Below, piece after piece: positions 8,350 to 11,659 of a stretch of DNA of 52,754 bases. The stretch is from Betaproteobacteria bacterium. Its GTDB lineage: Bacteria > Pseudomonadota > Gammaproteobacteria > Burkholderiales > Burkholderiaceae_A. Position 1 is the stretch's first letter. Each line of letters starts with the position of its first letter. The notes under the pieces were generated by a model. That model made no database searches, was not told the origin of the DNA, and was given only the letters and a program-made list of their open reading frames with translations. The translations under genes were made by a program, and so were the position numbers. The stretch covers positions 1 to 52,754 of the forward strand of contig VGHK01000014.1 in the NCBI GenBank assembly GCA_016868305.1, in the 5' to 3' direction.

Positions 8350-9138
8350 ATGGGGTTTCTCGCGCAGAAAAAGATACTCGTCACCGGCCTGCTCTCCAAC
8401 CGCTCTATCGCCTATGGCATCGCCCAGGCCTGCCGTGCCCAGGGAGCCGAACTGGCCTTCACCTACCAGAACGAGCGGTTTGAAGGGCGGGTGCGGGAGA
8501 TGGCCGCTGAGTTCGGCAGTGCCATCTGCCTGCCCTGCGATGTCTCCGAAGACAGCCAGATAAGCCAAGCCATGACCGCACTGGCTGGGACATGGGATGG
8601 CCTTGATGGGCTGGTCCATGCCATTGCCTACGCCCCACGAGAGGCGATTGCCGGAGACTTTCTCGATGGCCTGAGCCGGGAAGCATTTCGTATCGCCCAT
8701 GATGTCTCGAGCTACAGTTTTCCAGCCCTGGCGAAGGCCGCTATGCCCCTGATGCAGGGCCGGCAGGCGGCGCTGGTGTCGCTTACCTACCTGGGCGCCG
8801 AAAGGGTGGTTCCCGGCTACAACACCATGGGCCTTGCGAAGGCAAGCCTTGAGGCAGCCGTGCGTTATATGGCGGCAAGCCTTGGGCCCAAGGGTATCCG
8901 GGTCAACGGGGTGTCTGCGGGGCCCATTAAAACCCTCGCAGCCAGTGGAATCAAAGGGTTCGGTCAGATCCTGTCGGTGGTAGAGAAAAATGCACCACTA
9001 CGGCGCAACGTGACCATTCACGATGTTGGTAACGTCTGCGCCTTCCTGCTGTCTGACCTCGCAGCAGGCATTACCGGTGAGGTCACCTATGTGGATGCTG
9101 GGTTCAATACCGTGGCCTCCGGCCTGGACGCAGACTGA
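8350..9138 (+). CDS. fabI: Enoyl-[acyl-carrier-protein] reductase, NADH type
   Basis: Catalyses the last reduction of each fatty-acid elongation cycle in the cytosol. The 262 residues align without gaps to E. coli FabI over the first 130. The GxxSxxSxAYG nucleotide motif is seen as GLLSNRSIAYG (residues 13-23). The catalytic pair is Y157 and K164, with the second tyrosine at Y147 (E. coli Y156, K163, Y146; one residue is inserted here). At position 93, where E. coli has glycine in the triclosan pocket, this protein has alanine (HAIAYAP). Substrate-loop residues SAGPIKTLAASGIKGF are intact. It is followed 12 bases later by thyA. Confidence 0.96.
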   Translation: MGFLAQKKILVTGLLSNRSIAYGIAQACRAQGAELAFTYQNERFEGRVREMAAEFGSAICLPCDVSEDSQISQAMTALAGTWDGLDGLVHAIAYAPREAIAGDFLDGLSREAFRIAHDVSSYSFPALAKAAMPLMQGRQAALVSLTYLGAERVVPGYNTMGLAKASLEAAVRYMAASLGPKGIRVNGVSAGPIKTLAASGIKGFGQILSVVEKNAPLRRNVTIHDVGNVCAFLLSDLAAGITGEVTYVDAGFNTVASGLDAD

Positions 9139-9150
9139 GCCCAGAGAATC

Positions 9151-9957
9151 ATGCAGGCCTACCATGACCTCATGCGCTACGTGCTTGCCCATGGCATAGA
9201 GAAGTCCGACCGTACCGGCACTGGCACGCGGTCGGTCTTTGGCTGGCAGATGCGGTTTGCGCTGGAACACGGGTTCCCCCTAGTGACCACCAAAAAAGTG
9301 CACACCAAGAGCATCGTGCATGAGCTTCTCTGGTTTCTGCGTGGGGAGACCAACGTGAAGTCTCTACAACAGGCAGGGGTCACGATCTGGGATGAATGGG
9401 CTGACGCCCAAGGCGAACTCGGGCCCGTCTATGGCAGACAGTGGCGCGCCTGGCCCGACCCCCGCTCCAACGACCCCGAACATGCCATCGATCAGATCGC
9501 CTGGGTGATTGATGAGATAAGGCGCAATCCAGACTCACGGCGGCTGATCGTGAGTGCCTGGAACGTAGGACAGATCCCGCAGATGGCCTTGGCACCCTGT
9601 CACGCCTTCTTCCAGTTTTATGTAGCCCAGGGAAAGCTCTCCTGCCAGCTCTACCAGCGCAGTGCCGATATCTTTCTGGGCGTGCCGTTCAATATCGCCA
9701 GCTACGCTTTACTAACCCACCTGATAGCCGCCCAGACCAACCTGGCCGTTGGCGACTTTGTCTGGACAGGCGGGGACTGCCACCTCTACACCAACCATTT
9801 TGCGCAGGCCCGCGAGCAGCTCAGCCGCGCGCCGCTGCCCCTGCCAACGCTGCGGCTGCTCAGGCAACCGGCCACCATTTTCGACTATGCCTATGAGGAC
9901 ATACTGATCGAGGGATACCAAAGCCACCCGGCCATTAAAGCCCCTGTGGCGGTGTAG
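9151..9957 (+). CDS. thyA: Thymidylate synthase
   Basis: Methylates dUMP to dTMP with methylene-tetrahydrofolate, which leaves dihydrofolate for the reductase encoded next. It has 268 residues against 264 in E. coli. The [12 protein letters not shown] phosphate-loop region is at 20-31, the catalytic cysteine is C150 in [12 protein letters not shown], and the nucleotide-binding segment [22 protein letters not shown] is complete. The C-terminus ends in IKAPVAV, as the family requires for closure over the active site. It lies 12 bases after fabI and 14 before the folA fusion, in a probable three-gene operon. Confidence 0.97.
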
Positions 9958-9971
9958 AACGGGCGGCAGCC

Positions 9972-11174
9972 ATGAGGGAGCCGAAGGAGCCCAGTCTGCC
10001 GCCGGCTGGCGCAAGGGGCCTCACCGTCTCTCTCATTGCCGCAGTGGCCCAAAACGGCTGCATTGGGAAAGGCAACGATCTGCCCTGGCATATTCCCGAA
10101 GACCTCCAGCGATTCAAGTCGCTCACCTCCGGCCAGACGGTGTTCATGGGGCGAAAGACCTATGACTCCATCGTCGCGCGTCTGGGTAAGCCGCTTCCTG
10201 GGAGAAGGCACTGGGTTCTTACGCGACAGCCCGACTGGCATCCGGCGGCTGCCCATGCCGCCCAGGTGCAGCGACTGTCCAGTCTGGCTGAGGCTATAGA
10301 CCAAGCCCATCGAGAAGGTCTGCAGTCACTCTGGGTGATCGGGGGCGCCGACATCTATGCCCAGGCGCTCTGCTATGCCGATGCCCTCGAGCTTACCGAG
10401 GTCGGGGTCGATGTAGACGGAGACGCATTCTTTCCCGACTGGGGAACGCAGCGGTTTTCTGCCAGTTTCTCGTTACAAGAAGAAGGCCCCTGGGCGAATT
10501 CTGCTCAGGGGCTTCGATACCGGTTTCTGCGCTTTGCCCGAAAGCAGTCTAGCCCGGTGGCGGCAGTGGTGCTTGCAGCAGGCCAGGGCAGCCGAATGGG
10601 CAGCCGGCCCAAGAGTCTCATCAAGGTGCAAGGTCAGCCGCTCATTTTGAGGCTACTGGCAACCCTCAGAGTCTCAGGCATTGACCAGATCTCAGTTGTC
10701 TTGGGCTACTACGCAGACGAGATTGCAGCGGTGCTTGCTGGCGCAGGCGTAACCATTCTTCGAAACCCGCAGCCCGAGCGAGGTCAGGCCTCTTCCCAAA
10801 AGATTGGCTTAGCCAGCCTAACGACCGAGGCCAAGGCGGTCATGGTGGTGCTGGCCGATCAGCCCTATCTGGAGAAAGAGGATCTTCAGCAGCTCCTATC
10901 TGCATTCGAAAAACGGCCGCCCGATATCCAGTTTGTCTTTCCCCGCGTATGCGGCATTCCGGGCAACCCAGTCATCATGACTGCAGACCTGGCGCGGTTT
11001 TTTGCCCAACAAGACCCTCCCCTCGAGGGCCGTCAATGGCGTGCGGAAAATCCTCAGGCATGCCTGGGGTTTGAATCCAACAGCCGGCATTTCATCGAAG
11101 ACCTTGATACGCCAGAAGACCTTGCCATGCTTCAGGCCAGTCGCCGAAACACCGTAATACGCGGCCCCCAGTAG
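9972..11174 (+). CDS. folA: Fusion of dihydrofolate reductase and MocA-like nucleotidyltransferase
   Basis: One uninterrupted 400-residue frame encodes two enzymes. Residues 18-190 are a full dihydrofolate reductase: IAAVAQNGCIGKGNDLPWH, the acid D44 in IPEDLQRFK, FMGRKTYDSI, and WVIGGADIYAQAL. It regenerates tetrahydrofolate after ThyA. After only about four linker residues, 195-385 form a GT-A fold nucleotidyltransferase of the MocA/MobA kind. Visible motifs are LAAGQGSRMG (201-210), NPQPERGQASS, ADQPYL (295-300), IPGNPVIM (329-336) and DLDTPEDL. This family transfers CMP or GMP to molybdopterin, or acts on related substrates. No ribosome site precedes the second domain, so separate internal translation is unlikely. 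I do not know this fusion as a standard architecture. The 3' end overlaps the convergent C40 peptidase gene by 43 bases. Confidence 0.93.
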   Translation: MREPKEPSLPPAGARGLTVSLIAAVAQNGCIGKGNDLPWHIPEDLQRFKSLTSGQTVFMGRKTYDSIVARLGKPLPGRRHWVLTRQPDWHPAAAHAAQVQRLSSLAEAIDQAHREGLQSLWVIGGADIYAQALCYADALELTEVGVDVDGDAFFPDWGTQRFSASFSLQEEGPWANSAQGLRYRFLRFARKQSSPVAAVVLAAGQGSRMGSRPKSLIKVQGQPLILRLLATLRVSGIDQISVVLGYYADEIAAVLAGAGVTILRNPQPERGQASSQKIGLASLTTEAKAVMVVLADQPYLEKEDLQQLLSAFEKRPPDIQFVFPRVCGIPGNPVIMTADLARFFAQQDPPLEGRQWRAENPQACLGFESNSRHFIEDLDTPEDLAMLQASRRNTVIRGPQ

Positions 11175-11659
11175 GCGGAAATCAGGCTGTCGATCCGTAC
11201 CGTGCCGCCCTCGTTGGGCGCATGCACAAACCGGTTCTGACCCACGTAAATGCCAACATGAGAAAACGGATGGCCCGAGGTGTTGAAGAAAACAAGGTCT
11301 CCGGGCAGACGGTCTTCGACGGTAATCTCTTGCCCGAATCGGCTCATTTCGGCTACAGTTCGGGGCAGCTGCAGACCCTGAGCCCGTCGGGCAACGTAGA
11401 CCACGAGCCCGCTGCAGTCAAAGCCCCCCTGGGGCGTGTTTCCTCCCCAGCGATAGGGCACCCCCACCAGCCCAATCGCATGAATGGCCACTTCTGAAAG
11501 CCCGATCTGGTGGGACTCTTGCCGCGCGGGGGGGATGCGTATCCCAGAAGACGGCGCCTCGGCACCCGAAGGTGGTCGCGCCGGATCTGGCACGCTGGCG
11601 CATCCTGAGAGCAGCACCATGCCCAGGGTCACCGAAATATTACCTAGCCGAGTCGGCAT
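11132..11659 (-). CDS. C40-family (NlpC/P60) lipoprotein peptidase
   Basis: Probable outer-membrane-anchored murein endopeptidase that cuts the stem peptide. It has 175 residues. The lipobox LLSGC puts the lipidated cysteine at C20; a Pro/Ser/Ala-rich linker runs to about 48. The NlpC/P60 domain carries the expected triad C82 (GGFDCSGLV), H134 (FSHVGIY) and H146 (FVHAP), with LPGDLVFF between. It is close in style to the NlpC/Spr group. It follows metZ by three bases and may be cotranscribed with the metZ-purF end of the anabolic run. The last 43 bases overlap the end of the folA fusion on the other strand. Confidence 0.92.
   Translation of the reverse strand: MPTRLGNISVTLGMVLLSGCASVPDPARPPSGAEAPSSGIRIPPARQESHQIGLSEVAIHAIGLVGVPYRWGGNTPQGGFDCSGLVVYVARRAQGLQLPRTVAEMSRFGQEITVEDRLPGDLVFFNTSGHPFSHVGIYVGQNRFVHAPNEGGTVRIDSLISAYWGPRITVFRRLA

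Follow-up and report, generated by a model that had tools for sequence, protein, structure and literature searches.

A lineage-specific fusion of dihydrofolate reductase with a MocA-like nucleotidyltransferase in one genus of Burkholderiaceae_A

In the genome of a Burkholderiaceae_A bacterium, a single gene joins an essential folate enzyme, dihydrofolate reductase (DHFR; FolA), to a domain resembling a molybdenum cofactor enzyme, the nucleotidyltransferase MocA. To our knowledge, the folate and molybdenum cofactor pathways are not known to be tied to each other. The fusion of folA and a MocA-like gene is genuine, conserved, and specific to one lineage, being shared by five genomes of one genus. 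What is new is the combination, both component enzymes being already known; a first-pass annotation of the sequence did not recognize the architecture as a described one, and the literature searched, in which coverage of subscription papers was limited, likewise yielded no description of a FolA-MocA-type fusion. The favored reading, to which a probability of roughly 0.7 is assigned, is that a fabI-thyA-folA::mocA operon encodes a bifunctional FolA-MocA that provides the only DHFR found in the genome together with its presumed MocA.

RESULTS

One reading frame encodes two essentially complete domains

The window, that is, the whole stretch of 52,754 nucleotides that was analyzed, carries the folA::mocA-like fusion gene at positions 9972..11174 (+), where a single open frame runs from ATG to TAG through 400 codons (400 amino acids) without an internal stop. 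The DHFR domain (residues 19 to 188; 10026..10535, +) matches DHFR_1 (PF00186) at 153.7 bits, above the Pfam cutoff of 25 (E 4e-45; profile positions 2 to 157 of 159). The MocA-like nucleotidyltransferase domain (residues 198 to 384; 10563..11123, +) is matched over residues 198 to 347 by NTP_transf_3 (PF12804) at 109.6 bits, above the cutoff of 27 (E 2e-31; profile positions 1 to 144 of 160), and over residues 198 to 384 by the MocA model TIGR03310 (profile positions 2 to 185 of 188). Because these three profiles are covered almost in full, both domains are essentially complete, as had been proposed in the first-pass annotation from nearly the same boundaries (residues 18 to 190 and 195 to 385).

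Judged from its sequence, the DHFR half looks ordinary. Its closest solved chain is 2w3v (E 5e-32), aligned over the length of the half, and W39, D44, F48, T52, R78, and G124-G125, which we take to be conserved DHFR residues with known roles, are invariant in 27 sequences (the fusion and 26 other DHFRs). With the fusion as the query, no second DHFR was found in the window's genome, which is 97% complete and is referred to here as G000.

The two domains meet at residues 189 to 197 (10536..10562, +). In six other genomes of the family (G001, G002, G003, G008, G009, and G011), DHFR is a protein of its own that terminates 7 to 8 residues past a Y-R/T-F (YRF/YTF) motif, and the fused proteins continue exactly where these DHFRs stop, indicating that the join sits at the old C terminus of folA. 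The sole in-frame start codon noticed by eye within the join is a GTG at 10557-10559, and no purine-rich ribosome site was seen upstream of it, in agreement with the earlier reading that none precedes the second domain; an internal translation start at this codon is therefore unlikely. A structure model of the whole fusion was built from an alignment with DHFR relatives only (mean pLDDT, 68.8; pTM, 0.58). The mean pLDDT is at least 90 in each block of ten across residues 21 to 160 of the DHFR half and 36 to 65 per block in the transferase half, which, together with the domain contacts, is poorly modeled because of the DHFR-only alignment. The last DHFR strand (residues 183 to 190) and the first transferase strand (residues 196 to 203) are separated in the model by 5 residues, at middling confidence, close to the linker of about four residues originally noted. 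The model supports only this short join and not any contact between the domains.

The fusion follows thyA in an apparent operon

Upstream of the fusion lie thyA, encoding thymidylate synthase (9151..9957, +; NCBIfam NF002497, 463 bits, cutoff of 327), and fabI, encoding enoyl-ACP reductase (8350..9138, +; NCBIfam NF005422, 463 bits, cutoff of 440), the first gene of the apparent operon. The gaps are 12 bases between fabI and thyA and 14 bases between thyA and the fusion, and the gene order read at first pass stands. On the opposite strand, a gene named by eye as an NlpC/P60-type lipoprotein gene (11132..11659, -; NF008096, 77 bits, below the cutoff of 186) is placed tail to tail with the fusion and overlaps its final 43 bases. 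Tested neighbors in the window include leuC, truA, purF, and metZ-type genes.

The fusion is also found downstream of thyA in G004, G006, and G010; in G005, it lies at a contig end, and its first residues and the upstream gene are outside the assembly. Plain folA follows thyA in G001, G002, G003, G008, G009, and G011, and the two genes are ∼7 kb apart in G007. In all four relatives that carry the fusion (G004, G005, G006, and G010), moaE takes the place of the NlpC/P60-type gene, tail to tail with the fusion; in G000, moaE is on another contig than the fusion, in a row read as hom-thrC-moeA-moaE. A separate observation concerns G008, where a dcd-like frame of 583 amino acids beside folA (L080, 6816-8567) extends past the motif KSTYARC ('FRGDTRVALVDGS...'); by eye, the extension looks like an intein in dCTP deaminase.

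The fusion is confined to part of one genus

The full-length fusion was detected in 5 of the 11 genomes of the genus (G000, G004, G005, G006, and G010) and in none of the 15 others of the family. Among the matches listed for 399 genomes of the order and 398 genomes of the phylum, there was no fusion besides that of G000; scoring covered up to four first-look candidates per genome in these samples, so that a weak or distant fusion could escape. Overall, the fusion was seen in 5 of the 777 genomes examined (G000 to G776) and in none of the other 772. No plasmid record among the best 5,000 matches had one place covering >80% of the query, and none of the 761 matching phage records contained the fusion. 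Viral contigs, scanned with patterns derived from the DHFR half, gave 11 loci, all without the fusion, with matches that end by residue 218; scanning viral contigs with a MocA alignment found no relative. G073 seemed to hold a second fusion (L184), which was rejected because, by eye, it looks like an over-long frame. A wide fusion family was thus not encountered in the order, phylum, plasmid, phage, or viral samples, and the clade-wide conservation that had been proposed as support for function holds for one clade of five genomes but is not wide, given that these are fewer than half of the genomes of a single genus.

The transferase half lies on the MocA side of its superfamily

The first-pass annotation described the transferase half as MocA/MobA-like; the first part of this label is retained, and the second is not. 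TIGR03310 is its best NCBIfam transferase match, at 112 to 114 bits, below the equivalog cutoff of 186.45. The separate MocA-type proteins of G003, G004, and G006 likewise score below this cutoff (125 to 133 bits), which is passed by no protein in the 26 family genomes and in 1 of the 14 control genomes. In phmmer comparisons, the transferase half matches separate MocA-type proteins at 117 to 159 bits (best matches, 131 to 159 bits) and MobA-type proteins at no more than 33 bits; among solved chains, it matches 3d5n (Q97W15_SULSO; E 1e-15) and 2we9, a MobA- or MocA-related protein (E 8e-11). In a transferase tree of 28 rows, none of them an experimentally proven MocA, the MobA clade (support, 100/100) lies across an 87/72 branch from the fused domains; the backbone is poorly resolved, and the order of the MocA, GlmU, and other rows is unsettled.

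The domain carries the signature loop LAAGQGSRMGSRPK as well as the motifs LADQP and DLDTPEDL. Its loop is of the LAAG type and matches that of separate MocA-type proteins; a LAAG loop presumably marks the MocA side and a LAGG loop MobA, which uses GTP. On the evidence of the best matches, the tree, and the LAAG loop, the fused transferase appears to side with MocA, the cytidylyl type, and not with MobA, the guanylyl type. A MobA identity was rejected on similarity, clade, and loop, and the genome encodes a separate MobA-type protein. Because the curated cutoff is missed, the MocA label is used here in the sense of "works like" only; the firm assignments are to DHFR and NTP_transf_3. All five fused domains keep K214, D296, D377, and D379, which we take to be the catalytic residues. 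The signature loop is altered in the four relatives, whose transferase halves may have drifted in function.

Origin and selection of the fused gene

In the transferase tree, the fused domains of all five genomes group as a single clade (support, 98/96), within which those of the four relatives are set apart by a long branch (1.38). The tree of the DHFR halves is compatible with one origin of the fusions (77/78), and with thyA and fabI, the four testable fusion genomes (without G005) fall on one side of an 85/89 branch. Between G000 and the four relatives, identity is 52 to 56% in the DHFR half, 34 to 38% in the transferase half, and ∼44% overall; dS is saturated at this distance, where dN/dS means little. 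From the single clade of fused domains, it seems that the two enzymes stayed paired as over 60% of the transferase residues changed between G000 and the four relatives. Among G004, G005, G006, and G010 (six pairs), the Nei-Gojobori count gives dN/dS of 0.05 to 0.11 for the DHFR half and 0.03 to 0.11 for the transferase half, ratios that are rough because dS is >1, near saturation, in five of the six pairs. Among these four genomes, purifying selection on the two halves is similar.

MocA-type transferases accompany xanthine oxidase-family enzymes

According to PMC2997495, MocA adds CMP to Mo-molybdopterin, which yields the cytosine dinucleotide cofactor of bacterial xanthine oxidase-family enzymes, and some enzymes of this family bind the plain cofactor instead. 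Because MocA makes the cofactor of these enzymes, the fused domain, if it is a MocA, should accompany them. With PF02738, a molybdopterin-binding domain of the family, as the marker, such enzymes were located at six places in G000, four in G005, three each in G003 and G004, two in G006, and one in G010; PF02738 is absent from G001, G002, G007, G008, and G009. A MocA-type transferase, fused or separate, is present in 6 of 6 genomes with PF02738 and in 0 of 5 without it (genus, n = 11), a count that ignores kinship: the five genomes with the fusion belong to one clade, which leaves fewer than eleven independent points. MocA-type proteins were counted as TIGR03310 matches after removal of frames read as GlmU (mostly 460 to 570 residues long, or truncated by a contig end), of MobA-type frames, and of hits below 30 bits (G004, 34 bits). 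The comparison is confined to the genus because in G013 and G015, family members outside it, the transferases have diverged too far to be assigned. MoaE was found in all 11 genomes of the genus, as were DMSO reductase-family domains, so that general cofactor synthesis fails to explain the pattern.

In G000, TIGR03310 finds just a GlmU-length frame besides the fusion, and no MocA-like ORF lies within the six molybdoenzyme regions, which span 10.9 to 19 kb each; xdhC is present in at least two of these regions. The fusion is the only MocA-type protein found in G000, G005, and G010, all three of which have xanthine oxidase-family enzymes; G005 is 92% and G010 76% complete, and a separate mocA could be missing from these assemblies. 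G004 and G006 also carry a canonical separate MocA-type copy, and G003 has separate DHFR and MocA-type proteins alongside the same kinds of enzymes. In G003, G004, and G006 (L085, L084, and L083), the separate MocA-type gene adjoins xdhC, and the CoxL of the cluster bears AYRCSFR, which we take to be the mark of form I carbon monoxide dehydrogenase; a search of the six G000 molybdoenzyme loci gave AYRGAGR and PYRGAGR but not this motif. Gene names in these clusters are mostly by-eye assignments; tests covered the transferases, one MoaE, and three XdhC. This arrangement suggests that the separate copy might serve the form I-type carbon monoxide dehydrogenase, with the other enzymes supplied by the fused copy. 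The form I-type clusters also suggest CO oxidation in part of the genus.

Other features of the molybdenum cofactor genes were observed along the way. The MobA of G000 is itself a fusion (L124, 5157-6098, -; contig C1 near 77,200-78,100), in which an N-terminal part of ∼100 residues matches a [2Fe-2S] ferredoxin (1f37, E 3e-10) and precedes a MobA-type domain (98 bits). The family members G011 and G013 instead encode the ferredoxin in a small ORF of its own, located immediately upstream of mobA in the same orientation; thus, two neighboring genes seem to have merged in G000. Beside moeA and the ferredoxin-MobA gene lies a gene for a formate dehydrogenase-type alpha subunit (G000:C1:80091-81740; L124 from 7756; names by eye). 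Its PF00384 match crosses one in-frame TGA, likely a selenocysteine codon; G009, G011, G013, and G015, among others, likewise have PF00384 matches containing one TGA.

DISCUSSION

Under the favored reading, the N-terminal half would be an ordinary DHFR, working with the ThyA encoded just upstream, and the C-terminal half would be a CTP:molybdopterin cytidylyltransferase that converts Mo-molybdopterin to the cytosine dinucleotide cofactor for the xanthine oxidase-family enzymes encoded at six places in the genome. The fusion would have arisen once, in a subclade of the genus, when a copy of mocA was joined to the end of folA. The two active sites most likely work independently, and the gain from fusion would most likely be constitutive, matched expression.

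The transferase half could instead be a former MocA with another job, acting with another nucleotide or on another acceptor (folate or a sugar phosphate) or having a structural or dimerizing role. This reading, which is rather unlikely, would fit the score under the MocA equivalog cutoff, the long branch to the four relatives with their altered signature loop, and the canonical separate copy in G004 and G006. Against it stand the position of the fusion as the sole MocA-type protein found in three genomes with xanthine oxidase-family enzymes (although G005, at 92% completeness, and G010, at 76%, could lack a separate copy through gaps in the assembly), the four putative catalytic residues kept in all five proteins, the purifying selection on the transferase half, and the loop of the window's protein, which matches that of separate MocA-type proteins. 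An assembly or frameshift error joining two genes is conceivable in a draft genome of 97 contigs, and a stop codon or frameshift at the join, or relatives with always separate genes, had been named at the outset as signs of it; the frame is open through the join, and the same two-domain frame recurs in four other draft genomes, ∼44% identical overall, among which both halves are conserved at a dS of >1 in five of six pairs. Given these four further genomes, an artifact is rejected as very improbable.

The substrates of DHFR and MocA are both pterins, which the first-pass annotation had offered as a possible common theme. The two halves might be coupled, with the DHFR half reducing a dihydro- or oxidized molybdopterin, or keeping it reduced, around CMP charging, or with folate status regulating the charging. 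The shared substrate class, the very short join, the conservation of the fusion in five genomes, and the fusion of MobA in the same genome to a redox protein, the [2Fe-2S] ferredoxin, are consistent with such coupling. However, the DHFR half looks ordinary, the sister genome G003 has both enzymes apart, and gene-end fusions also arise without chemical coupling, which makes coupling improbable. More speculative still is the idea that the DHFR half, alongside making tetrahydrofolate, would reduce or guard the oxidation-prone molybdopterin and hand it to the joined cytidylyltransferase; equally doubtful is its extension, in which one NADPH-dependent enzyme would serve both pterin cofactors and ferredoxin-MobA would be the matching device of the guanine branch. 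The fusion is in any case a natural test of a link between the two pterin cofactors, and it offers a tractable construct for work on MocA. If the coupling is true, this would suggest that reduction state is a hidden need of molybdopterin charging; if it is not, the gene stands as a clean instance of an enzyme fusion restricted to one lineage and found in a small genome.

Both halves of the fusion have counterparts among known systems. MocA proteins (E. coli MocA and B. subtilis PucB) share with it NTP_transf_3, the LAAG...RMG..PK loop, and co-occurrence with xanthine oxidase-family enzymes and XdhC. The MocA-type proteins of G003, G004, G006, and G055 are separate and adjoin xdhC, whereas the fused domain makes up the C-terminal half of a protein that begins with a DHFR; it also scores below the TIGR03310 cutoff. 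MobA, the guanylyltransferase for bis-MGD, belongs to the same superfamily as the fused domain but presumably is distinguished by its LAGG loop, falls in another clade, and is represented in the genome by a MobA-type protein of its own. Like the bacterial chromosomal FolA, the fusion has a complete DHFR domain with the conserved residues and lies behind thyA, as in six family genomes; unlike FolA, it bears a second enzyme at its C terminus. In plants and protists, DHFR and thymidylate synthase are combined in one chain, which resembles the fusion in pairing DHFR with another enzyme. This DHFR-thymidylate synthase appears as a table entry in PMC2705460. Its partner domain, thymidylate synthase, is the metabolic neighbor of DHFR, whereas in the genomes described here, thymidylate synthase is encoded by a separate gene, and the partner of DHFR comes from another cofactor pathway.
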